A DNA stretch of 64,000 bases from Ectocarpus siliculosus (taxonomy: Eukaryota > Sar > Phaeophyceae > Ectocarpales > Ectocarpaceae). Both the position numbers and the translations under genes were made by a program. The DNA is taken from assembly GCA_000310025.1 (NCBI GenBank), contig FN649728.1, positions 1,660,277 through 1,724,276 of the forward strand. The letters are read 5' to 3'. The notes beneath the pieces are model-generated. The model made no database searches. It was not told the DNA's origin and saw only the letters and a program-made list of their open reading frames with translations. Below, in pieces: positions 25,700-64,000 of the stretch (its first letter is position 1; the number at the start of each line of letters is the position of its first letter).

Positions 25700-28600
25700 T
25701 GGGCAAACCGCGTGGAGACAATGGCACGGGAAGAGCTACGATCGAAACTGCGTCAGAGCAAGTGGTATACAGATGAGCCGGTTACCGAGAGAATCATCTT
25801 CGATCTCGACGTCAGCCGGTCGATGTACACGCATATCAGTCTCAGTTTTGTTCAACCCCCCTCGCCTGTTAGTGCGCAGCCTTGTCGTCCTTCTTGCTCT
25901 TGTCGTTTTTCATGGAAGTGAAGGACGCGTCGTGGGGACTTGCTTGGCCATGAATGATGACACAGTGGTAGAAGAAGGGCTCGACCTGCTTTCAGACGGG
26001 TGGACGAGAGACAAGGGGCGAGGGGGGTCAGCACCTGCTGCGCTCATCGGCTCAAGGCCGTTTACATTCTAATGAGCGAGCCTACCTCGGCTGCCGAGAG
26101 CTTGCTCTGGAATTCCGCATGCCGCATGGAATCGACCATGTCCGGGTAGTACAGAGAGACGAGCCTCCTTCTGGCTCTCTGGCTAGAGAGGAACGAACAT
26201 ATCTCATCTCTACACTCCGGGTACACTTCATTTCCGGCCTTTGGGCGAAACGCGTGGAGACAATGGCACGGGAAGAGCTACGATCGAAACTGCGTCAGAG
26301 CGAGTGGTATACAGATGAGCCGGTTGCCGAGAGAATCATCTTCGATCTCGACATCGGCCGGTCGATCTACACGCACATCAGTCTCAGTTTTGTTCAACCC
26401 CCCTCGCCTGTTAGTGTGCAGCCTAGTTGTTGTCGTTCTTCGTGGAAGTGAAGGACGCGTCGTGGGGACTTGCTTGGCCATGAATGATGACACAGTGGTA
26501 GAAGAAGGGCTCGACCTGCTTTCAGACGGGTGGACGAGAGACAAGGGGCGAGAGGGGTCAGCACCTGCTGCGCTCATCGGCTCAAGGCCGTTTACATTCT
26601 AATGAGCGAGCCTACCTCGGCTGCCGAGAGCTTGCTCTGGAATTCCGCATGCCGCATGGAATCGACCATGTCCGGGTAGTACAGAGAGACGAGCCTCCTT
26701 CTGGCTCTCTGGCTAGAGAGGAACGAACATATCTCATCTCTACACTCCGGGTACACTTCATTTCCGGCCTTTGGGCGAAACGCGTGGAGACAATGGCACG
26801 GGAAGAGCTATGATCGAAACTGCGTCAGAGCAAGTGGTATACAGATGAGCCGGTTGCCGAGAGAATCATCTTCGATCTCGACATCGGCCGGTCGATATAC
26901 ACGCACATCAGTCTCAGTTTTGTTCAACCCCCCTCGCCTGTTAGTGTGCAGCCTAGTTGTTGTCGTTATTCGTGAAAGTGAAGGACGCGTCGTGGGGACT
27001 TGCTTGGCCATGAATGATGACACGGTGGTAGAAGAAGGGCTCGACCTGCTTTCAGACGGGTGGACGAGAGACAAGGGGCGAGGGGGGTCAGCACCTGCTG
27101 CGCTCATCAGCTCAAGGCCGTTTACATTCTAATGAGCGAGCCTACCTCGGCTGCCGAGAGCTTGACTCTGGAATTCCGCATGGAATCGACCACGTCCGGG
27201 TAGTACAGAGAGACGAGCCTCCTTCTGGCCCTCTGGCTAGAGAGGAACGACCATATCTCATCTCTACACTCCGGGTACACTTCATTTCCGGCCTTTGGGC
27301 GAAACGCGTGGAGACAATGGCACGGGAAGAGCTACGATCGAAACTGCGTCAGAGCAAGTGGTATACAGATGAGGCGGTTGCCGAGAGAATCATCTTCGAT
27401 CTCGACATCGGCCGGTCGGTATACACGCACATCAGTCTCAGTTTTGTTCAACCCCCCTCGCCTGTTAGTGTGCAGCCTAGTTGTTGTCGTTCTTCGTGAA
27501 AGTGAAGGACGCGTCGTGGGGACTTGCTTGGCCATGAATGATGACACGGTGGTAGAAGAAGGGCTCGACCTGCTTTCAGACGGGTGGACGAGAGACAAGG
27601 GGCGAGGGGGGTCAGCACCTGCTGCGCTCATCAGCTCAAGGCCGTTTACATTCTAATGAGCGAGCCTACCTCGGCTGCCGAGAGCTTGCTCTGGAATTCC
27701 GCATGCCGCATGGAATCGACCATGTCCGGGTAGTACAGAGAGACGAGCCTCCTTCTGGCTCTCTGGCTAGAGAGGAACGAACATATCTCATCTCTACACT
27801 CCGGGTACACTTCATTTCCGGCCTTTGGGCGAAACGCGTGGAGACAATGGCACGGGAAGAGCTACGATCGAAACTGCGTCAGAGCAAGTGGTATACAGAT
27901 GAGCCGGTTGCCGAGAGAATCATCTTCGATCTCGACATCGGCCGGTCGATCTACACGCACATCAGTCTCAGTTTTGTTCAACCCCCCTCGCCTGTTAGTG
28001 TGCAGCCTAGTTGTTGTCGTTCTTCGTGGAAGTGAAGGACGCGTCGTGGGGACTTGCTTGGCCATGAATGATGACACGGTGGTAGAAGAAGGGCTCGACC
28101 TGCTTTCAGACGGGTGGACGAGAGACAAGGGGCGAGGGGGGTCAGCACCTGCTGCGCTCATCGGCTCAAGGCCGTTTACATTCTAATGAGCGAGCCTACC
28201 TCGGCTGCCGAGAGCTTGCTCTGGAATTCCGCATGCCGCATGGAATCGACCATGTCCGGGTAGTACAGAGAGACGAGCCTCCTTCTGGCTCTCTGGCTAG
28301 AGAGGAACGAACATATCTCATCTCTACACTCCGGGTACACTTCATTTCCGGCCTTTGGGCGAAACGCGTGGAGACAATGGCACGGGAAGAGCTACGATCG
28401 AAACTGCGTCAGAGCAAGTGGTATACAGATGAGCCGGTTGCCGAAAGAAACATCTTCGATCTCGACATCAGCCGGTCGATCTACACGCACATCAGTCTCA
28501 GTTTTGTTCAACCCCCCTCGCCTGTTAGTGTGCAGCCTAGTTGTTGTCGTTCTTCGTGGAAGTGAAGGACGCGTCGTGGGGACTTGCTTGGCCATGAATG

Positions 28601-31600
28601 ATGACACGGTGGTAGAAGAAGGGCTCGACCTGCTTTCAGACGGGTGGACGAGAGACAAGGGGCGAGGGGGGTCAGCACCTGCTGCGCTCATCGGCTCAAG
28701 GCCGTTTACATTCTAATGAGCGAGCCTACCTCGGCTGCCGAGAGCTTGCTCTGGAATTCCGCATGCCGCATGGAATCGACCATGTCCGGGTAGTACAGAG
28801 AGACGAGCCTCCTTCTGGCTCTCTGGCTAGAGAGGAACGAACATATCTCATCTCTACACTCCGGGTACACTTCATTTCCGGCCTTTGGGCGAAACGCGTG
28901 GAGACAATGGCACGGGAAGAGCTACGATCGAAACTGCGTCAGAGCGAGTGGTATACAGATGAGCCGGTTGCCGAGAGAATCATCTTCGATCTCGACATCG
29001 GCCGGTCGATCTACACGCACATCAGTCTCAGTTTTGTTCAACCCCCCTCGCCTGTTAGTGTGCAGCCTAGTTGTTGTCGTTCTTCGTGGAAGTGAAGGAC
29101 GCGTCGTGGGGACTTGCTTGGCCATGAATGATGACACAGTGGTAAGAAGAAGGGCTCGACCTGCTTTCAGACGGGTGGACGAGAGACAAGGGGCGAGAGG
29201 GGTCAGCACCTGCTGCGCTCATCGGCTCAAGGCCGTTTACATTCTAATGAGCGAGCCTACCTCGGCTGCCGAGAGCTTGCTCTGGAATTCCGCATGCCGC
29301 ATGGAATCGACCATGTCCGGGTAGTACAGAGAGACGAGCCTCCTTCTGGCTCTCTGGCTAGAGAGGAACGAACATATCTCATCTCTACACTCCGGGTACA
29401 CTTCATTTCCGGCCTTTGGGCGAAACGCGTGGAGACAATGGCACGGGAAGAGCTATGATCGAAACTGCGTCAGAGCAAGTGGTATACAGATGAGCCGGTT
29501 GCCGAGAGAATCATCTTCGATCTCGACATCGGCCGGTCGATCTACACGCACATCAGTCTCAGTTTTGTTCAACCCCCCTCGCCTGTTAGTGTGCAGCCTA
29601 GTTGTTATCGTTCTTCGTGGAAGTGAAGGACGCGTCGTGGGGACTTGCTTGGCCATGAATGATGACACGGTGGTAGAAGAAGGGCTCGACCTGCTTTCAG
29701 ACGGGTGGACGAGAGACAAGGGGCGAGGGGGGTCAGCACCTGCTGCGCTCATCGGCTCAAGGCCGTTTACATTCTAATGAGCGAGCCTACCTCGGCTGCC
29801 GAGAGCTTGCTCTGGAATTCCGCATGGAATCGACCATGTCCGGGTAGTACAGAGAGACGAGCCTCCTTCTGGCTCTCTGGCTAGAGAGGAACGACCATAT
29901 CTCATCTCTACACTCCGGGTACACTTCATTTCCGGCCTTTGGGCGAAACGCGTGGAGACAATGGCACGGGAAGAGCTACGATCGAAACTGCGTCAGAGCA
30001 AGTGGTATACAGATGAGCCGGTTGCCGAGAGAATCATCTTCGATCTCGACATCAGCCGGTCGATATACACGCACATCAGTCTCAGTTTTGTTCAACCCCC
30101 CTCGCCTGTTAGTGTGCAGCCTAGTTGTTGTCGTTCTTCGTGGAAGTGAAGGACGCGTCGTGGGGACTTGCTTGGCCATGAATGATGACACAGTGGTAGA
30201 AGAAGGGCTCGACCTGCTTTCAGACGGGTGGACGAGAGACAAGGGGCGAGGGGGGTCAGCACCTGCTGCGCTCATCGGCTCAAGGCCGTTTACATTCTAA
30301 TGAGCGAGCCTACCTCGGCTGCCGAGAGCTTGCTCTGGAATTCCGCATGCCGCATGGAATCGACCATGTCCGGGTAGTACAGAGAGACGAGCCTCCTTCT
30401 GGCTCTCTGGCTAGAGAGGAACGAACATATCTCATCTCTACACTCCGGGTACACTTCATTTCCGGCCTTTGGGCGAAACGCGTGGAGACAATGGCACGGG
30501 AAGAGCTACGATCGAAACTGCGTCAGAGCGAGTGGTATACAGATGAGCCGGTTGCCGAGAGAATCATCTTCGATCTCGACATCGGCCGGTCGATCTACAC
30601 GCACATCAGTCTCAGTTTTGTTCAACCCCCCTCGCCTGTTAGTGTGCAGCCTAGTTGTTGTCGTTCTTCGTGGAAGTGAAGGACGCGTCGTGGGGACTTG
30701 CTTGGCCATGAATGATGACACAGTGGTAGAAGAAGGGCTCGACCTGCTTTCAGACGGGTGGACGAGAGACAAGGGGCGAGAGGGGTCAGCACCTGCTGCG
30801 CTCATCGGCTCAAGGCCGTTTACATTCTAATGAGCGAGCCTACCTCGGCTGCCGAGAGCTTGCTCTGGAATTCCGCATGCCGCATGGAATCGACCATGTC
30901 CGGGTAGTACAGAGAGACGAGCCTCCTTCTGGCTCTCTGGCTAAAGAGGAACGACCATATCTCATCTCTACACTCCGGGTACACTTCATTTCCGGCCTTT
31001 GGGCGAAACGCGTGGAGACAATGGCACGGGAAGAGCTACGATCGAAACTGCGTCAGAGCAAGTGGTATACAGATGAGCCGGTTGCCGAGAGAATCATCTT
31101 CGATCTCGACGTCAGCCGGTCGATCTACACGCACATCAGTCTCAGTTTTGTTCAACCCCCCTCGCCTGTTAGTGTGCAGCCTAGTTGTTATCGTTCTTCG
31201 TGGAAGTGAAGGACGCGTCGTGGGGACTTGCTTGGCCATGAATGATGACACGGTGGTAGAAGAAGGGCTCGACCTGCTTTCAGACGGGTGGACGAGAGAC
31301 AAGGGGCGAGGGGGGTCAGCACCTGCTGCGCTCATCGGCTCAAGGCCGTTTACATTCTAATGAGCGAGCCTACCTCGGCTGCCGAGAGCTTGCTCTGGAA
31401 TTCCGCATGCCGCATGGAATCGACCATGTCCGGGTAGTACAGAGAGACGAGCCTCCTTCTGGCTCTCTGGCTAGAGAGGAACGACCATATCTCATCTCTA
31501 CGCCCCAGTTACACTTCATTTCCGGCCTTTAGGCGAGACACGTGGAGACAATGGCACGGGAAGAGCTACGATCGAAACTGCGTCAGCGCGAGTGGTATAC

Positions 31601-52491: not shown

Positions 52492-55420
52492 GGGGCTATG
52501 GACAGCCGCAAGCCCTTAGTTCTGCCGAGACGCCGGTGGTGAAGCTGCTACTCTCGTGTTGGCAGGGGACTATCGCCTGGTACACCTTGTTGTGCTGCTG
52601 CTGAGATCCTACCTTTGCTCTGTGTTGCAGGTGTTCGTGCTGTCTGGACTGCGGTCGGACCGTTTGTTGTCGCTGGTGGGGATTTGTGGGCAACCAACCT
52701 CCAGCCCTCTCTGAGTTGGTGGCTTGATCCACGGTTCTTGTGTCCGTATGCCGCTGATCACGAGATCCACACCACCATTCCTCTGTTGTTGTGGATGTTG
52801 TATCTTCGCGGATTGCCGGCTTTGGTCGACTTTGGAGCTGTGCTCTCTGAGCAAACTCCGACGAACAGCAGCTGGGTGTGGCTCGTCCTCTGCTGTATGT
52901 GTCTCACCTCATCCGTCACCCGGAACTCGTCGCCTATTTACCTCACACCCTTTGAGCTGGGAAGTTAGTCGTCGCTAATGACAGAGCAGTAGCGGCAGGG
53001 TCCAACCAAAAAGGGATCCCAAAAAAATTCTTTGTCTTTGGCGGGATCCGACCGACCGTTTCAGCAACACCCCAACTGATGTTGGAAAATTTGATTTTGA
53101 GTGGGGGGGGGGGGGTAGTATCGCCGGCTGGACTCGACTGAGGACCGCGACGCATCATGCATAGCTAACACGGTCACGCCGGGATGGTCCAACTTTTAAG
53201 GTGTCTACCGCTTCTCCTGCTGTTCATGCTTGCGGGTGAGTGAACGGTGTACAGGGGTCAAGATGACAAAAGGGAGACGTTGTTGATTGAAATGTCATGT
53301 CCCGAGATGCATGAGCAAGGAGATTAATTTTCTGTCCTTTGCTCTGCAGCAGGCTGACGACGCAGTAACCAATGAAGCGTGGCGCCAGGTAGCAAGCACA
53401 CACGCGCGATCAGCTTCTCGTCACGCCTTTTGACACGCTCGCACGGATACTGATGGGCGGTTACCCGCAGGAATTGCGATCCATGCAAACGCCGGCAGTG
53501 GACTCGCATACGAACGGCAATCGCTACAATACGCACACATGAAAAAAAAAAAATACACGAGCGAGCTCTTGACGAAAACTGATGCGCACATGTTTTTTTT
53601 GTAAAATACGGTGTACCTGATGTTTTGGATTGTTATTTGTTCTGCCGCTCCTCCTCGCAATCCAAAAACTCCGCTGGCTGACGCTCCCTGCTGCCGGCGC
53701 TGCCGTGGGGCGTATCATCGTCAACAGCAGCACGTGCCTTCGTACCTGCGTCACTGGCTCCCGGTCGGACAGCCATCGCTGGTGGAGCTCGCAAGCACGG
53801 AGCGGGTCGGACTGCTGTTGCTGGCGTGCGGCAACAGCAGCGCACCAACAGCGCTGGCCTGATGTGCAGCCTGGGCAAGCTGTTCGGAGGAGGCGGGTGA
53901 GTCAGCGACTGACCACTGGGCGTGAGCTTAATAATGAATAATATGACCCGTAAAAATGCGCACGACCGTTGCCGCTGACATGCCCCTCGGCACACCCACT
54001 TGTTGTTGGTTGATCTGTTCGACCTAGAGGTATTTCAGAGTGAGACCCGGGAGCGTTGTGTAGGCTGTATTTAGACAGTCTAAGCTCTGGTAAGTTGTCA
54101 AGCCTAGACTCTATGACAGCGGGGTAAAGGCTGTGTCCGTGCTGTTTCTGACCTCAGCCGAAGAGAGACTGCTGCGTTAGTGATGCACACCTAGGGGTGG
54201 AGGAAATCTGCTACTAAAGAACAGCCTATCCACAGTTGATGTGTAGCGACATGACGGATGCTGACGCAGTGCCCTTCTCCCTCACACATGGAACTCTTCG
54301 ACCCACGTTTGAAACGCGGCGATTTATTTTTTCCATGTGTCAACGGAGACCGTTGCTGGATTACTCCGTTTTGCCGTTCACGGTTCACCACCGTCCATGG
54401 ACGTGCCTTGTTGTACATACATCATGCACTCCAACACATCCCGTTCGACTGCTGTGGTTTTATATCTCGAACGGGTAGTTTTGCTGCATGCCTACAGTAG
54501 TTGTATTTTTTTTTCCTGATCATGTCTGACGCCTTTGATGGTACCCTGCAAGTGGTGCGCAAGGTACATGCACGGCCACCTGCAATGCACCCGACGCCCA
54601 CCTCCAACAGTCGCTACCAATGCACATACATGTACATGCGGCGACGATGTACTACTTCTGCTGTGAGTGCAGCAACACCAATTGGTCCTGGGATGGAAGT
54701 GTCGTGACCCTTTTCGAAACGAAAACAGGTGTGGGGGCGTTTTGCTGGGGGAAGTCAGCGAGCGCCTGTAAAAGCGATGATACAAACACAAGCCAAGACG
54801 CCTCTATCTAGCTTTTGTATGTACCCCAAGCTCTGCCTCCAAGCAACAAATTTCGCGTCGTGAGGCCAAACACAACGTAAGTAAACTGCTGTGTAGTGGA
54901 TTACAGCTTTCTGGTCGCACAAGCAAATGTGTATCTTCCCTCGACGTCACCTCCCGACTACTGTTCTTGGTCGTTGCAAACTCTGTCAAAATCCCGAGCG
55001 ATGTACAATTGGGTATCTTGCCCTTTCGGTCGTCTGAACGCATGTGTCCGTGCCATTCCGCACGCGACCGTTCTCCTCAGCGACGTTCCACACAAGGCCA
55101 GGGAAGACAGCGATCATGCGCACATTCGCGCACCGTGCTTTCGGCTCTTGCTGTTCTTCTAGTCCATTCACGGGAGGAAGTGATGGCGTTGACGGGGTAT
55201 CTCCCCCAGCAGAGTCCGCCGCAGGGGTAGAGCGCCCGGCAGGGGGAAACGAAGACCTCTTGTCTTTTCCAGTGCAGCCCCAAGCTGTTGAGTGGTAAGT
55301 GTAGAGACTTGCTCTTCACGTCCGCCATATTCGGCTTGGCGGGAGATGCAAGTCGTGTGCTTCAACCTCCGGTTGTTCGGCCGAGCGTCAACCACCTGTT
55401 CAGCCTTTACAACCAACGTT
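52492..55420. other. Intergenic region between the proton-channel and glutathione-peroxidase genes
   Basis: It should contain the promoter of the proton-channel gene and the promoter plus first exon of the peroxidase gene. I could not identify either. Notable are a G-run at 53103-53116 and many short unrelated reading frames. Confidence 0.5.
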
Positions 55421-55423
55421 TTT

Positions 55424-55488
55424 AGAAGACAAATCACACCATCAGAAGAGTCAGCGCTGACTAGTCTAATGGTTTGATTTCGGATTCT
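55424..55488. repeat. 65-bp hairpin element with GTCAGCGCTGAC core
   Basis: AGAAGACAAATCACACCATC is mirrored imperfectly by ATGGTTTGATTTCGGATTCT, around GAGTCAGCGCTGACTAG. The core dodecamer is also the centre of the perfect palindrome at 935-1016. Confidence 0.8.
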
Positions 55489-55647
55489 GAAAGCCGTCCA
55501 ACAGCAGACCTCAGATGGCATGTTCTAGGGCCCTGGCTGTGCCTTTTCGACGAAGGAAAGCGCCGTTCGTTTGCTGCTGGATCAGTGCTCGCCCCCTTAC
55601 TTATTGGTTGTCACGCCCTCCCCCACCGCCCGGCCTGTCTTACTCAG

Positions 55648-58240
55648 GGCACCCGCCACGTCCATCTTCGATTTCAAGGTTAAGGATGCTACCGGTGGCG
55701 AGGTAGACCTGGCCGACTACAAGGGTCAGAAGAAGGCGTTCCTCATCGTCAATGTGGCGAGTAAATGAGGTATCTATTGTGTGGGCGACGGATAGTGTGG
55801 CGATATTGTGTGATACATCAAAGTATAGGATAAGGTGTGGTTGAGGTATTATTGTATCGTTGGAAATGCAGACGATGTGGCGAGCAGTATAAGGAGGTGT
55901 TGTGTGCTTGGACTACGGATGTGGCTTGTTGTTGTTCCGTCGCGCTGCACTACTGGTGTAGCTGCACAGGTGCTCAACCGTGCTTTTTTTTTCTACACTG
56001 CCCGATGGGGCGAGACTTGTATCTCTGATGGCCCCTTTCCCTCCGGTCCACGTTCGCACAAATGTAATCTGTTCTTCAAGACGCGCTCTTTGCTGCGCTT
56101 TGTTGAAATCACAATCGGGGGAGGCCAATCACCAAGCTGCTTGCGTGTCCCCCCGATACAAGTATCTTCCCACCGCAGTACATGCCGCGAACGAACGTGT
56201 GGAGAAGCATATCTCCCCCGTCACGCCTTCACCCCCCTGGTGATCTCTTCCCCTTGACCTTGTTCCACCCCCCGACTTTTTTGCGACGTTTTCTGCTCCG
56301 CAAGGTCTAACCGCCCAGAACTACGCCGAGCTGGCGGCTCTCTACGGAAAGTACGCCGGCCGCGGCCTAGAGATTCTGGGCTTTCCTTCGAACCAGTTCG
56401 GTTCGCAGGTATATGTGTTCATGCGTCTTGTCGTTCTTTTTGTGCTCTTGGTTTCTCGTCGATGGCTATTGCTGTGTAGTTTTTCTCTTTGTATATCTTT
56501 GTGAGACCGGTTCGCGGGTGCATGCATGCGTGTTCTATAGTAGTTATTTTTTGTGCTCTTGTTTTCCCTCTCGATGTCTACTGTGCTGTGTTTTTCTTCT
56601 TTCGAGTGTCTTTCGTAAGAGAGGCATCTCTCTGTTCCCCTCCCCCAACCCCCGAAGCCATTCCGGATGTTTTATTTTCGGTCGTTGGTTGGTTATGCGC
56701 TTTTCTTGCGTTCAGAGGGGCTCCGTCATCCAGTGCTTGTAGCTTATTCATAACCTTTCTCTGTTGGTTGGAGTTCGGGCTGTACTATGTTGTGCGTGCA
56801 GTACAAATTACCACGCACAATCAAGTTGGACACTGTTGCTGTCGGAACGTGAGTTGCATGATAGACTACCCCCAACAGGCTCCGACTCGAACCTCCGCAC
56901 TTGTCGCCATTCTCTCCGCTTCTCTCTACCCTTTGTCCCTTTTATCGTCCCAAACTTGAATTTTTTGTGCCTCTTCTGCTCGTGCCGACTGTTTTTCGCG
57001 ATGGGGCGTCATTTTGTTCCGGTGCGGCTGTTTCGTTTCGAGAAACAGGAACCAGGCACCAATGCCGAAATCCAGGTGGGCACGTCACCTTGGCCGCGCC
57101 ATGATGAAACAGTGTCCGACGCTGCCTGTTCACCAAGAGTCGCTACATACAATTCCGTTTGCACGATGATTGCTCGCAGGTTGTCTTGATAGCAGCAGTA
57201 TCCTTCACAAGGAGTTTAAGCTAGGGCGTAGTAGGGGGTACGGTGTTGGGTTAGGGTTAGGGATGGGCCCCCCTTTCTATTTCATAGATCAACCTAAAGT
57301 CCTCGCGGGTGTGATCCTGTCTCGACCGGTGGGTGTCCCGTCGCGTGCGGAAGAGGTGTGGCGTATGCGCATGAGCTGTAGCTTTTCTGTGAACCACGGG
57401 CCTCCTGTGTGTCTTTTTAACCTTGTCTGTTCCGCGCGTGCGCGTCCCCGTACCTGCTGCTGTCGCGGCCGAAACGCTCGCGCCCGTCGGCCAGGACTTT
57501 GCCAAGGCAAGGGGTGCGACGTACCCCGTCTTTGCCAAGGTCGAGGTGAACGGCTTCGGCGCCATCCCCCTCTACAAGTTCCTGAAGGACAGGCAGGGCG
57601 GGGGCTTGGGCATCTCCGCCATCAAGTGGAACTTCACCAAGTGCGTCCGTCCGCAAATCGCGAAGGCCGTGCCCTACGCGGCGTTGTGTCGCAACAGCGA
57701 TTTGGGGAGTGTCTGGCGCTGTGTCGTGGGAGCCACGTGTTGATACAGTACTCACCTGAGTCTACCTTATCAAGAGCCTTGGTGCAACTATAGCTCGAAC
57801 TTGCCTATTCTAATTTGTGTATTTGGTGTGCAGAATAGTCCATAGGGAAGCGTGTGCTGGTTCTTGCATCACTGTCGTCGTTTGCAAACGTTGTTTTCCC
57901 GGCCGGGACACAGTGTCTGGACCAAACGAAGCAACCGTGAGCCTCCACAGGCACCATGTACTGCTGTGGAGGGGAAGCATGTTGTTGTCCCAGTGTTGCC
58001 GGTTCCGGTTCTGCAAATCAGCACTTTGTTTCGTTGGCGAGGCCGCGAGATTGACCATACGCGGTCCGCCCTACCGTGCATGCGCACTAACCCCCCCTCA
58101 CACACACATCTCGGCCCACGCGCGGACCCCGAAACACAATCAGGTTCCTCTGCGATGCCGACGGAGTGCCGGTGAACCGTTTCGGCCCCACGGAAAGCCC
58201 GTTTTCCTTCGAGCAGGACATCGTCGACCTCCTCAAGTAA
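55648..58240 (+). CDS. GPX: Glutathione peroxidase (GPX4-like), probable selenoprotein, 5' exon missing
   Basis: Exons: 55648-55769, 56305-56408, 57049-57075, 57495-57640, 58144-58240; phases agree. Family signatures in order are FLIVNVASK then an in-frame TGA then [39 protein letters not shown] (split over exons), [29 protein letters not shown] and [10 protein letters not shown]. The TGA (55766-55768) sits exactly where the catalytic Cys/Sec lies. The donor after TGAG and the acceptor before GTCTAACC give K-U-G-L, and no alternative junction yields Cys. Trp and Asn of WNFTK complete the catalytic set. There is no oligomerisation loop, so it resembles monomeric GPX4-type enzymes that reduce peroxides with glutathione or thioredoxin. 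The coding start is not resolved: the first exon shown begins at an acceptor (TTACTCAG, phase 2), so an upstream exon is missing. Exon 3 has only 9 codons. Confidence 0.88.
55766..55768 (+). other. In-frame TGA, candidate selenocysteine codon
   Basis: It follows GTGGCGAGTAAA (VASK) and lies one base before the exon end. The flanking protein context is the catalytic loop of glutathione peroxidases. A SECIS element is required downstream; I did not recognise a convincing one between 58241 and 58800 by eye. Confidence 0.75.
57247..57262. repeat. Short interstitial telomere-like repeat
   Basis: GGGTTAGGGTTAGGG, a little over two TTAGGG units, in the intron before GPX exon 4. It may be chance or a relic of repair. 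Confidence 0.6.
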
Positions 58241-58283
58241 AGCCTCCGGCCGTGATGCATGCGCCGCCGCTGCCGCTGCCGCT

Positions 58284-59066
58284 ATTCTGCTACGTGCTCC
58301 GAACTAGTTCGTGGGATCAGCCGGCACCGGCACCGACGGTCCCGTTTGTCTCTGCGTCCCCGTTGTGGGTCAGCGGTCGCGGCTCGCAAACGCAAGACCA
58401 TGCTACGATATTCCCTGGATGTGAGCCAGATCGTCTAGTGTTGGAAAGTCGCTCTACCGGTGTACCGGAACGGCGGTGGCGCGGCAGCCTGCGTTAGGAC
58501 GTGTCACAGGTGCGGAGCGCAGGAGATGGATGTCCCCCTGGCCACGAACCCACCGCTTGCAGCAGTGCGGAGAGAGGTTGCCCGAGAGTGTTGGGTGTCG
58601 GCAGCAGTGCGAGAGGTTTTGAGAGCAAGGTAGCTGCGGAAGGGCAAGACTACGGAGCTGCGTTCGTTGTTGGCCGCATTTTTATTGGATGGTGGCACGC
58701 GCTGTGGCTAGGAAAAGGCCAGCGATCCCCGCGGGTGAATGACGGAAATATTTTTGCGAAAAAATCATCGGAAATGGTGATCGCTTTTTCTTGACAAACC
58801 CGGGGGGTGGCTGGTTCTTCTTTCGGTTGTGGTTTTGCTGTGCTCAACTTGACAATGTTGATCATGCGGGTTGTAACGACACTCAGTCTATTAGGCCCTT
58901 TTTTCCGCCTTTTCTGCCTTGTTTGGGAAGTCGCTACGTGTTTTCTTTTTGAAAGATATAGCGTATCCCGTTTTTTGATGATTCGAAAATTTTGGTGGGA
59001 GGCTCGGAGGGAAGGTTTAAGAATTTGGCTTGCTACCATCGTTTTCCTCTTTGGTATTGATTGCAA
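58284..59066 (+). mobile_element. Left arm of a long inverted repeat (element about 5.7 kb)
   Basis: This arm is the reverse complement of 63214-63998 with roughly 93-95% identity over about 780 bp, including TCTCTGCGTCCCCGTTGTGG, GTGTACCGGAACGGCGGTGG and CTACCATCGTTTTCCTCTTT. It begins about 45 bp after the GPX stop codon, so it probably supplies part of that gene's 3' UTR. Reading frames that appear in both arms reflect the duplication. Confidence 0.92.
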
Positions 59067-59109
59067 ATTGGGGTAACAAATCCCGCAAAAAAACAATAAA
59101 GAATCTTGT

Positions 59110-59372
59110 CAGAAATTTCGATACTTTATCCAAGTGAAAAATGTGACGGATTTTCCTACTTAGATCAAGTAAAAAATATGACGGATTTTCATACTTCGAT
59201 CGAGTCAAATATGTGACGGATTTTCATACTTTGATCAAGTAAAAAAACTGATCGAAATCCATAGATGAATCAAGTGAAAAAAGTGATCGGAACCCATAGA
59301 TTAATCATAAGTTGAACTTGTCACACTTCTTTCCATAGATTAATCAAGTCAAACTTGTCTCACTTGCTCGAC
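59110..59372. repeat. Minisatellite, about 36-bp unit
   Basis: Units of the type GTGACGGATTTTCATACTT, then TGATCAAGTAAAAAA, repeat about seven times with increasing decay towards the right (CCATAGATTAATCAAGT). It lies between the left arm and the foldback at 59373. Confidence 0.8.
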
Positions 59373-60077
59373 TCTTAAGGGCGCGGGGGGGATCGCAGTA
59401 CTTCCTCTTCAAAAAAACAGAAAACAGGAAACGCCTGGAAACGCCTGCATATCTCGGTTTTCCAAAGTCTAACTCCAGTACGAAACTACCATCGTAAATT
59501 AACCGCCCGCAGCGGTCGTCGTCAGCGGTCGTTTGTGTACAATGTTAGTAGCTGAGGTTGTACCCCTTGCGATACACTACAGACTAGCGGTCCGCGATTT
59601 TCCAAACGATCCTTCTATCATCGAGTTCGGTGAGCTACAAGCTAGATTTTTGAAGCTGCTGTGCGGTCCAATTTTGAAACGCTTCAAGCACACGGTGAAC
59701 ACGAATCACCGCCTATGTGAGAGTATGGGGCCGCGAACTTCAGCGCAGCTCTTCCCTCACATATCCAGCTGGTCGCCATTGTCGATTTGAATGCTCAAAA
59801 TTGGACCGCACAGCAGCTTCAAAAATCTAGCTTGTAGCTCACCGAACTCGATGATAGAAGGATCGTTTGGAAAATCGCGGACCGCTAGTCTGTAGTGTAT
59901 CGCAAGGGGTACAACCTCAGCTACTAACATTGTACACAAGCGACCGCTGCGGGCGGTTAATTTACGATGGTAGTTTCGTACTGGAGTTAGACTTTGGAAA
60001 ACCGAGATATATATGCAGGCGTTTCCTGGATTTTTCAGAGGAGGTACTACTGCGATCCCCCCCGCGCCCTTAAATCA
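59373..60077. mobile_element. Foldback element with arms of about 300 bp
   Basis: The segment 59373-59690 is mirrored by 59793-60077, around a ~100-bp spacer. The mirrored block includes TAAGGGCGCGGGGGGGATCG, ATTTACGATGGTAGTTTCGT and GTACAATGTTAGTAGCTGAG. The same 49-codon frame (starting MCTMLVAEVVPLAIHYRLAV) is therefore present on both strands. No transposase is visible. Confidence 0.92.
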
Positions 60078-60173
60078 AGTTATGACCAAACCTAACCAAA
60101 CCAGACACACACGTTACACAACGACGGCGTTGAATCAGCTGCGTGCGCCTGGCACATAGCATACACACACACA

Positions 60174-60394
60174 TACCGTTTATGACACAAGATAACACAC
60201 CCCCTTGGCCGATTTTCAAAGCTCAATTTCTCAACAGCAGGAAGAGTCACAGCGCCGAAAACGGCGGCGTTGGAACCGTCTCGTCGAGAGCTGTTCGAAA
60301 ACGTATTGTTTCGTTTATGCATCCTCTTCGTCGTGGAGTAATCGAGCTTTGAAAATCGGTCCAGGGGGTGTGTTATCTTGTGTCATATACGGTA
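60174..60394 (+). mobile_element. 221-bp MITE with about 52-bp terminal inverted repeats
   Basis: Left end TACCGTTTATGACACAAGAT, then AACACACCCCC and GATTTTCAAAGCTC; right end is its mirror (GAGCTTTGAAAATCGG, GGGGGTGTGTTATCTTGTG, TCATATACGGTA). The core (AAAACGGCGGCGTTGGAACC, CTCGTCGAGAGC) recurs at 19612 and, inverted, at 39748. Confidence 0.9.
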
Positions 60395-60613
60395 GACATA
60401 TATATCTCCCTACTGCTGCTGTGTGGACTTTGCGACCCCTACGCCCTATGTGCATGACTCTGTGGTGCATCTCCCACATCAGATGCGGTGTCCCACCAGA
60501 CTGCTGTGTGCCAGCAAGCTCCTGTGGCACGCACACGCACTGCTGTCATATGTCTCACAATTTTTCGGAAGTAGAACACAACAACAGGCTTGCTTACGAT
60601 TCCTGGAGAACCG

Positions 60614-61309
60614 TATTACGCACAAAACATCGCCCACGTTGTTATTCTACATTGGAGCTCGGGCGGACAATATTTTGGCAGCGAAAACCCAGACTTACAT
60701 GATGTGTTTGATTGATGATGGCAGATTTCCGATGAGAACCGAACTTGAAGCCGAAACAACACCACAAATGGGACATGTTCAACAAATCAGCTGGATGCAT
60801 GCTCTCAGACTTGTCTACACTTGGCCCGCTACCAAGTGTAGTAAACGTAGGTACTACTGTTGGACAATGCGATGACACGAAGAGCCACAACCATGAATAA
60901 TCGAATTAGTGAATGAACGAACGAATGAAAGTGTAGAAGCAAGAGGCAAACATTTCAAATCGTCGCATTTGATGGGTTTGATAGGTTTCAAAATTGGTTC
61001 GCCAGGCTTTGTCAGCGCGGAACGCGTCCCCGGGGTTTTGAGCCAGTTTTCGCAACTTTGGCCGTCAACCACACGCGCCACGGAGGCCTACCGAGCTCGG
61101 GGCACGGGCGTTAATGTACCGACGAGCCTCCTGCGTGCCCCTGAGAAGGAACCGCGATAAAAGACTCGCTGCCGCGAGAGAAAGAAACGCCAAAGCATGA
61201 AAAGTGACCAAATCTTATGTATGTACATAGTTTTCGCTGCCAAAATATTGTCCGCCCGAGCTGGCTCCAATGTAGAATAACAACGTGGGCGATGTTTTGT
61301 GCGGAAAAC
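60614..61309. mobile_element. About 0.7-kb element with about 75-bp terminal inverted repeats
   Basis: 60616-60692 (CGCACAAAACATCGCCCACG, TTGTTATTCTACATTGGAGC, GGGCGGACAATATTTTGGCA) is mirrored at 61228-61308, which has a 4-bp insertion (GCCA). No transposase gene is recognised between the arms. It sits inside the larger 58284-63998 structure. Confidence 0.85.
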
Positions 61310-61520
61310 AAGCGTTGTCAGACACACAGTCCCTCTGCGGGCAATGCGAATGTGGTCTTGCGTCACCTGAGGGAGGGTAGATACCCACGTCCCGAAGGGA
61401 GACCTTGTATGTATATGTATCATTTCGCCTGTTTTTGTGCTTCGGGACATCTTTCGCTGGCTCAAGTCAATCGTTTCTCACGCTTCCTTCTCAGGGGCAC
61501 GCGGGGGGGGTCGTCGGCAC
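61116..61520. repeat. Shorter inverted repeat overlapping the previous element
   Basis: GACGAGCCTCC, CGTGCCCCTGAGAAGGAA at 61119-61151 is mirrored by TTCCTTCTCAGGGGCACGCG and TCGTCGG at 61480-61517. The two arms straddle the right arm of the 60614-61309 element, which suggests nesting of one insertion into another. Confidence 0.65.
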
Positions 61521-63213
61521 AATACCACGCACGCCCGAGGACCACTATTCAGCCGTGGCGCGTGTGCTTGACGCCCAAAGCTGAAAAAACTGGCTCTATA
61601 CCCCGGGGATGTGTTCCGCGCGAAAAAAAACTTGGCAAGAAATTCGAAATTTAGACTGTAGCATGCATCGAAACCCACTCTCTCCCGTGGTTCCACGGGC
61701 GCTCGCATAGATATAGAGAGCCAGAGAGCCACATACATACCCTGCCGAGTGAATCTACTTCACAGAAGAGGCGGTGGTGACGACCGGCTGCTGGACCCGA
61801 TCCATAGCCCAATCAAGTCTTGTTGTTCAACATCGGTGTCTCTCTCTTTTGACCTTCGTTTGTGCTGTCGTTTAACCTGAAGCGAAGTACATGTTATGTA
61901 CCATCACTCACTGTTGTTGATGCGCACAACAACTACATATGTACAGAGGGACCATTATTATTTCATTCATTCAAACTAGAGGGACCATATTGTTTTCATT
62001 CGATGAGTCGTTTCTCCCGGCATAATCGGGCACAGACTCCATAGACCCAATAAATGCGCGTGTTGAAGATTCCAAAACACTGAGGTCTACCGTTTGAAAT
62101 AGATGGGGCATCCGGGCTTGTGCGATCTATTGCAATTGGCAAGAGTGAATTGACACTCACTACAGCACAACAAGTAGTTTGGGCAAGACGTTTGTGGGCA
62201 CGGAAGCGCACGGGAAACAGGCGCTGCATGCGATCAGCTGGAACACCTCGCACAACCTTCTCTCTGCTCGTGACTGAACTCACAACTGGGCACACCAATT
62301 TCACCGTCAGCCAGGACGAGCAGCAAACCATTCAGGACGTCACACCCTCCCCCCATCCATCTCGTTCATCTGGTCACACACTTTCAATCGAGTGTGCAGG
62401 GCTTTCCGCGATAATATGGCGGGGCATCTTTAGTGTCCTGATTCAACTCCAGGACATGTTCACTGCCACAAGCGAAAGTGGTGTTCCTGAGCATGGGCAC
62501 CTCAGCAAGGGTCGACTATTGAATGCAAAACAAGCTCTCCTGTTTTTCGTACCAACTTTTCTGCCTCCGCGACGCAAACCAAACACCCTTCAGGACCATT
62601 GCTCGCCCGTGCTTGTCGTGCAATTCATTTTTGTTGGAAATAACAGCTTCGTTCTCCGCCGCGGCAACAGAAGGCGATTGGTTGGTATTCCATGCGTAGC
62701 CCCCCGCCCCAGTGATGCAGCAGGTCTTAATTGTCCCATCATCCGCGGAGGTTCTCATTCATCATAATCTCTTCGATATGGACAAGGCACTTGAGAGTTT
62801 TTCTCGACATTCGACCACTAGAGTAGTACTGAACCCACGTAACTGGAGAAAGGAGGAGGAGCCTCATGGTCGAGAGGGACGGAAGATGCCGTGGACAAAA
62901 CGTTGTTCGACAGCCGACGTATGTGCTGCCGATGTTTCTGTCAACTTCGCACGCTGGGCTTCTATGCAGCAGGGTGGATTGTTCGCCATGCACCCTGCAT
63001 CCAGCGTACTAGTTGCTGTGCGCAGAAGACGAAGAACATAACCGGCCCCATGGCCCGTTTCACTTTATTGCGGTTGCAGTATGCTGCATAGCGTGGCAAC
63101 GTCCGCAAGCACAATCTAGAAACCGCAAGGCGGGTTCGTTTCAAAACAATAAATGACTTCCGCTCCGGAACGTCCAACACTTCACTAGAAGCAGGAAGAA
63201 ATCACATATTCAA
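61521..63213. other. Interior of the long inverted repeat, no gene recognised
   Basis: One plus-strand frame (62120-62767, 215 codons) is the longest but shows no family motif. I see no DDE/RNase H-type transposase signature or helicase motif. If the structure is a transposon it is non-autonomous, or its gene is degraded or spliced beyond recognition. Confidence 0.5.
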
Positions 63214-63998
63214 TCTATACCAAAGAGGAAAACGATGGTAGCAAGCCAAATTCTTAAACCTTCCCTCCGAGCCTCCACCAAAATTTTCGAAACATCAAAA
63301 AACGGGATACGCTATATCTTTCAAAAAGAAAACACGTAGCGACTTCCCAAACAAGGCAGAAAAGGCGGAAAAGGGGCCTACAGTAGTAGACTGAGTGTCG
63401 TTACAACCCGCATGATCAACATTGTCAAGTTGAGCACAGCAAAATCACAGCCGAAAGAAGAACCAGCCACCCCCCGGGTTTGTCAAGAAAAAGCGATCAC
63501 CGTTTCCGATGATTTTTTCGCAAAAATATTTCCGTCATTCACCCGCGGGGATCGCTGGCCTTTTCCCAGCCACAGCGCGTGCCACCATCCAATAAAAATG
63601 CGGCCAACAACGAACGCAGCTCCGCAGTCTTGCCCTTCCACAGCTGCCTTGCTTTCGAACCCCCTGGCACAGCGACCGACACCCAACACTCTGGAGCAAA
63701 CTCTCTCCGCACTGCTGCAAGATGTGGATTAGTGGCCAGGGGGACATCCATCTCCTGCGCTCCGCACCTGTGAGACGTCCAAACGCAGGCTGCCGCGCCA
63801 CCGCCGTTCCGGTACACCGGTAGAGCGACTTTCCAACACTAGACGATCTGGCCCCCATTCAGGGAATATCGTCGCATGCTCTTGCGTTTGCGAGCCGCGA
63901 CCGCTGACCCACAACGGGGACGCAGAGACAAACGGGATCGTCGGTGCCGGTGCCGGTGCCGGTTGGTCCCACGAGCTAGTTCGCCGCACGTAGTAGAT
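63214..63998 (-). mobile_element. Right arm of the long inverted repeat
   Basis: Reverse complement of 58284-59066. Differences are scattered substitutions plus small indels. Similarity ends a few bases before the window end (CTACTACGTGC against CTGCTACGTGC), so the outer terminus is probably near 63996, but sequence beyond the window is needed to be sure. Confidence 0.9.
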
Positions 63999-64000
63999 TA

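Follow-up and report, generated by a model that had tools for sequence, protein, structure and literature searches.

A GPX4-like glutathione peroxidase gene with an in-frame TGA at the catalytic position and a predicted SECIS element in a brown-alga-like genome

Glutathione peroxidases (GPX) share a catalytic tetrad made of Sec or Cys, Gln, Trp and Asn. In GPX4, selenocysteine (Sec) is incorporated through UGA with a SECIS element in the 3' UTR, and the plant-type Cys-GPX are thioredoxin-dependent enzymes with a second Cys. As described in the available sections of two papers, a SECIS combines an AUGA core and its GA partner, forming a non-Watson-Crick quartet at the base of helix 2, with an apical motif of unpaired A, to which Form 2 elements add a bulge and a third helix (PMC3328465; PMC11227280). 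The available part of The algal selenoproteomes counts Sec-GPX as one of the four selenoproteins with the widest distribution in algae and reports 5-6 selenoprotein genes in brown algae, the families of which are not named in the section text (PMC7539508). Another study, in its accessible portion, lists a tRNA-Sec gene for Ectocarpus siliculosus (PMC7678280). The accessible portions of two other articles name Ectocarpus and hold nothing on the GPX gene presented here (PMC3281104; PMC4342817), those of a third make no mention of brown algae (PMC4561486), and the titles and abstract openings covered by the literature search contain no description of this GPX pair or of its SECIS.

The window, i.e., the whole stretch of 64,000 nucleotides analysed here (C3:1660277-1724276), belongs to an assembly of 189 Mb in 492 contigs, which was searched as the genome; the GC content is mostly 52-57% per 2 kb. 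The EsV_1_7_cys family is expanded in brown algae, and the corresponding Pfam model gave at least 150 matches in this genome, every one above the cut-off (150 of 880 candidates scored), with none in 14 control prokaryotes. Together with GC content and size, these matches point to a brown-alga-like genome.

A GPX4-like glutathione peroxidase gene of five exons was reconstructed at 55648-58240 on the forward strand (Table 1), with AG and GT at the exon borders and a TAA at the end of the last exon. Once joined, the exons encode 164 residues followed by the stop (APATSIFDF...NVASKUGLTAQNY...WNFTKFLCDADG...DLLK-stop), and the catalytic tetrad is complete (U40, Q75, W129, and N130). With Cys entered for Sec, the product contains a GSHPx domain (Pfam PF00255, 7.7e-33, 112.8 bits versus a cut-off of 27), and 42 different sequences in the PDB match it with E values no higher than 0.001; the NCBIfam GPX models match it as well, with scores under their equivalog cut-offs. 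The top PDB match is Glutathione peroxidase 5 (2p5q, 1.5e-48), which we take to be the poplar enzyme, a plant-type Cys-GPX that has Cys where the window gene has Sec, and it is followed by designed GPX4 variants and GPX4 entries matching over nearly the full length. The likeness to the Sec form of GPX4 extends over residues 3-159 of 164 and includes the NVAS-x-U/C-G and IKWNFTKFL motifs. By contrast, the window gene differs from GPX4 in having an exon boundary directly after the Sec codon and in reading FPSNQF at the site of FPCNQF in the aligned GPX4-derived chains, and its SECIS is of Form 2, whereas the human GPX4 element is given as Form 1 in the available sections of PMC3328465. The leader exon, and hence the start codon, is uncertain because its counterpart in the second gene copy described below is frame-shifted and holds a TAG.

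Table 1. Features of the GPX locus, in window coordinates.
Feature	Position	Strand	Content	Basis or remark
Tentative leader exon	55116..55294	+	MRTFAHRAFG..., donor gtg/GTAAGT, phase compatible with exon 1	Top-scoring upstream in-frame ATG/donor pair
Exon 1, conserved GPX domain	55648..55769	+	APATSIFDF...NVASK-U-G	Splice reconstruction
Alternative in-frame donor	55761..55766	+	cga/GTAAAT, would splice out K-U-G	No GT in copy 2
TGA, putative selenocysteine codon	55766..55768	+	Catalytic position, codon 40 of the domain	Also in copy 2
Exon 2	56305..56408	+	LTAQNY...FPSNQFGSQ	Splice reconstruction
27-nt mini-exon	57049..57075	+	EPGTNAEIQ	Splice reconstruction; same in copy 2
Exon 4	57495..57640	+	DFAKARG...WNFTK	Splice reconstruction
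Exon 5	58144..58240	+	FLCDADG...DLLK and TAA stop (58238-58240)	Splice reconstruction
Predicted Form 2 (type II) SECIS	58718..58815	+	3' UTR of the window GPX	Criteria scan, fold, shuffles
3' UTR of copy 2	63206..64000	-		93% identity to the window GPX 3' UTR, 792 alignment columns
Predicted SECIS of copy 2	63461..63559	-		Only minus-strand match in the window scan

The first-pass annotation of this DNA had described a GPX with TGA at its catalytic residue, and this description stands: the GSHPx domain is intact and the TGA is in frame between VASK and GLTAQNY (NVASK-U-GLTAQNY), followed by one G and then by the intron. The placement of this codon one base from an exon end was also correct, since exon 1 ends in TGAG/gtatct at 55769, and exon 2 starts at 56305 (cgcaag/GTCTAACC). 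The redox position occupied by UGA is a Cys in homologues, including paralogues of the same genome on contigs C17 (VASHCGYT) and C6 (VASQCST); a further GPX-family fragment is found on C190. The same annotation held that the only phase-compatible junction keeps the TGA. The TGAG/GTCTAACC join does fit, but it is not the only one: when GT or GC donors at 55735-56000 were combined with AG acceptors up to exon 2 and the TGA was read through, 40 joins stayed open, 27 of them with GT. Only one of the 40, 55761/56305, was free of TGA, and no TGA-free join placed a Cys in this region. The donor of that join is phase-compatible with the acceptor of exon 2, and splicing at this site might be supposed to give a Sec-free VASLTAQNY protein as the main product of the gene. 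We regard this as highly improbable, since such a product would have no catalytic residue, the SECIS would be purposeless, and the second copy, which carries GCGAGCGAATGAG in place of the donor, retains TGAG/GTATCT.

The stretch 58241-59100, in which a SECIS search had been proposed at first pass, does hold a predicted Form 2 element, whose core starts 499 bases past the stop. Its helix I (58718-58736/58798-58815) leads to an AUGA core (58739-58742) with its GA partner (58793-58794), and the apical part shows an unpaired A-run (58760-58764) and a ministem (58765-58780). Helix II is interrupted on its 5' side by a 7-nt U-rich bulge, UAUUUUU (58749-58755), and the spacing from core to A motif is 17, versus 12-13 in the elements of the SelT-like and SelW-like genes of the same genome. 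A 100-base segment with this element has a minimum free energy of -43.5 kcal/mol (z -4.0), and none of 200 shuffles was as stable. A first, strict scan (spacing 9-14) detected no A-type SECIS in the 3' UTR of the window GPX, a looser one (8-16) gave a candidate with ATGA at 58739-58742, and the full criteria included helix I and a spacing of 10-17. The spacing limit was widened only after the strict scan had missed the element, which is why the second copy and the other selenoprotein genes matter as support. The strict scan yielded only a CC-type candidate in this 3' UTR, at 58253, and copy 2 gave two weak candidates; as no candidate was common to both copies, all were discarded.

Under the full criteria, the plus strand of the window gave 15 matches, the best being the window SECIS (-42.9) and the next reaching -17.4, and the minus strand gave a single match, the SECIS of copy 2 (-45.4). 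Among the 10 of the 15 plus-strand matches that were listed, eight fall on copies of a repeat of roughly 530 bases: a segment recurs at this interval in 25955-30223 with near-identical weak scan matches, and is likely a long direct-repeat array. When 58241-59100 was shuffled 1000 times with dinucleotides preserved, a match arose in 23 of the shuffled sequences, the best at -34.9. A background of 245,056 bases from this genome, taken from the two strands of other loci with the GPX pair and the SelT and SelW loci excluded and overlapping loci counted repeatedly, gave six matches, of which four are apparently one place and the best reached -19.3. With E values of up to 10 allowed, the Rfam models reported no SECIS in either 55000-64000 or 58200-59400, and the one snoRNA-like match (E 9.3) was taken as chance. 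The silence of Rfam SECIS_1 weighs little against the element because those of the SelT-like and SelW-like genes also went unreported when the whole genome was searched with this model. A chance occurrence is not a sensible alternative, since the domain is otherwise intact, the TGA falls on its catalytic residue and a SECIS follows downstream.

A second, inverted GPX copy has its coding exons just past the window end (C3:1724315-1727308, minus strand), with exon lengths equal to those of the window gene (122, 104, 27, 146, and 97). It keeps the TGA (NVASEUG, TGAG/GTATCT), and the two SECIS elements differ at one base in 99, by which a G-U pair of the ministem becomes G-C. The copies differ at 17 of 165 codons, six changes being silent and 11 replacing, with dN of 0.031 and dS of 0.060 (NG86), i.e., a dN/dS of about 0.5, which indicates modest constraint between the two. 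Over aligned positions, introns 1 to 4 diverge by 9, 25, 2, and 11%, respectively, the near-identical intron 3 suggesting patchy exchange between the copies. As copy 2 is a fairly recent duplicate, it does not bring fully independent support. In addition, Glu replaces Gln71 and the tetrad Gln75 (Q75E) in its product, the latter position being Glu in 2p5q too (FGEEEPG versus FASEEPG), and due to these substitutions and the frame-shifted leader counterpart with its TAG, copy 2 may be decaying or using another start. This duplication, the disrupted leader counterpart and Q75E could be taken as signs of a pseudogene, with the TGA as a premature stop in a copy undergoing decay. Such an explanation is very hard to credit, since the stop is TGA rather than TAA or TAG and falls exactly at the catalytic position in both, albeit non-independent, copies, the exons of the window gene are open with GT-AG borders, and a SECIS is present in both 3' UTRs.

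The first-pass annotation had further supposed that the lineage has Sec machinery, and tRNA-Sec, SepSecS and eEFSec were all found in the genome. The tRNA-Sec match (C18:980158) scores 69.6 bits for a cut-off of 47 bits and shows TTTCAAA at the anticodon loop; ARAGORN with the bacterial code called no tRNA at this locus, and assigned a second, lower-scoring tRNA-Sec match on C11 to tRNA-Ser. On C17, six stretches match SepSecS, and a stop was counted within four of these unspliced stretches. The eEFSec locus on C457 has domain III (1.4e-7) and, upstream and in different frames, the GHVDSGK and DCPGH motifs, the DCPGH stretch being closest to eEFSec (1.2e-18) versus 2.8e-7 at best for EF-Tu.

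Two other genes of the genome, SelT-like (C2:9199581-9200000, minus strand) and SelW-like (C9:3994108-3994332, minus strand), are Rdx-family matches that each hold one in-frame TGA, in CVSU and CGGU, respectively. By the same criteria, exactly one SECIS was found at each locus, the coding strand alone being scanned, with cores 260 (SelT-like) and 532 (SelW-like) bases past the stop. The elements of the GPX, SelT-like and SelW-like genes all begin with AATGACGG; aligning the latter two leaves their helices out of register, with few base pairs in common. The one weak match of Rfam SECIS_1 in the whole genome, below the cut-off (C11:1838464, 24.2 bits), was rejected, with no selenoprotein in the upstream frames and no SECIS in the criteria scan, and the stretches on C2 and C14 that match SELENOU-type families contained no stop.

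Taken with the TGA at the catalytic site and the SECIS in both copies, the machinery genes support the initial reading of a selenoprotein gene, and the window gene very probably encodes a GPX4-like selenoprotein with a catalytic Sec inserted by UGA recoding. Through its SECIS, the mRNA would bring in a SECIS-binding protein as well as eEFSec carrying Sec-tRNA-Sec, and the ribosome would insert Sec at the UGA and read on to the UAA of exon 5. The enzyme would then reduce hydroperoxides, possibly of lipids, via its Sec-Gln-Trp-Asn tetrad; both the actual recoding and the activity we infer from the sequence. Glutathione would be more likely than thioredoxin to act as the reductant, since the sole Cys of the 164 residues sits in FLCDADG, outside the region in which the resolving Cys of the family usually lies.

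The window gene belongs to a known kind of selenoprotein that is widespread in algae, and represents it well without being exceptional. It is mildly unusual in small respects: the U-rich bulge in helix II, the inverted pair of Sec-GPX and the in-phase alternative donor, the use of which would splice out the Sec codon. It is conceivable, albeit somewhat doubtful, that the GPX SECIS works despite the bulge, which lengthens the spacing from core to A motif. If so, the length of helix II would be less strictly constrained than currently assumed, and tools that allow only a narrow spacing would miss some of the selenoproteins of brown algae. The use of Sec in an apparently multicellular brown alga is supported by cis and trans components that match within a single genome, and the natural Sec-GPX pair beside Cys-GPX paralogues may serve to compare what selenium gives to the enzyme. 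Moreover, the genome provides SECIS elements of three kinds of genes that Rfam SECIS_1 leaves unreported.

Between the two GPX copies lies a foldback of about 700 bases (59375-60073), probably a transposon-like palindrome, consisting of nested inverted repeats with arms of 155 nt (99%), 70 nt (100%), and 43 nt (88%). Right past the end of the duplicated stretch, 59100-59370 holds short imperfect direct repeats of the tgtgacggattttcatacttngatca type.
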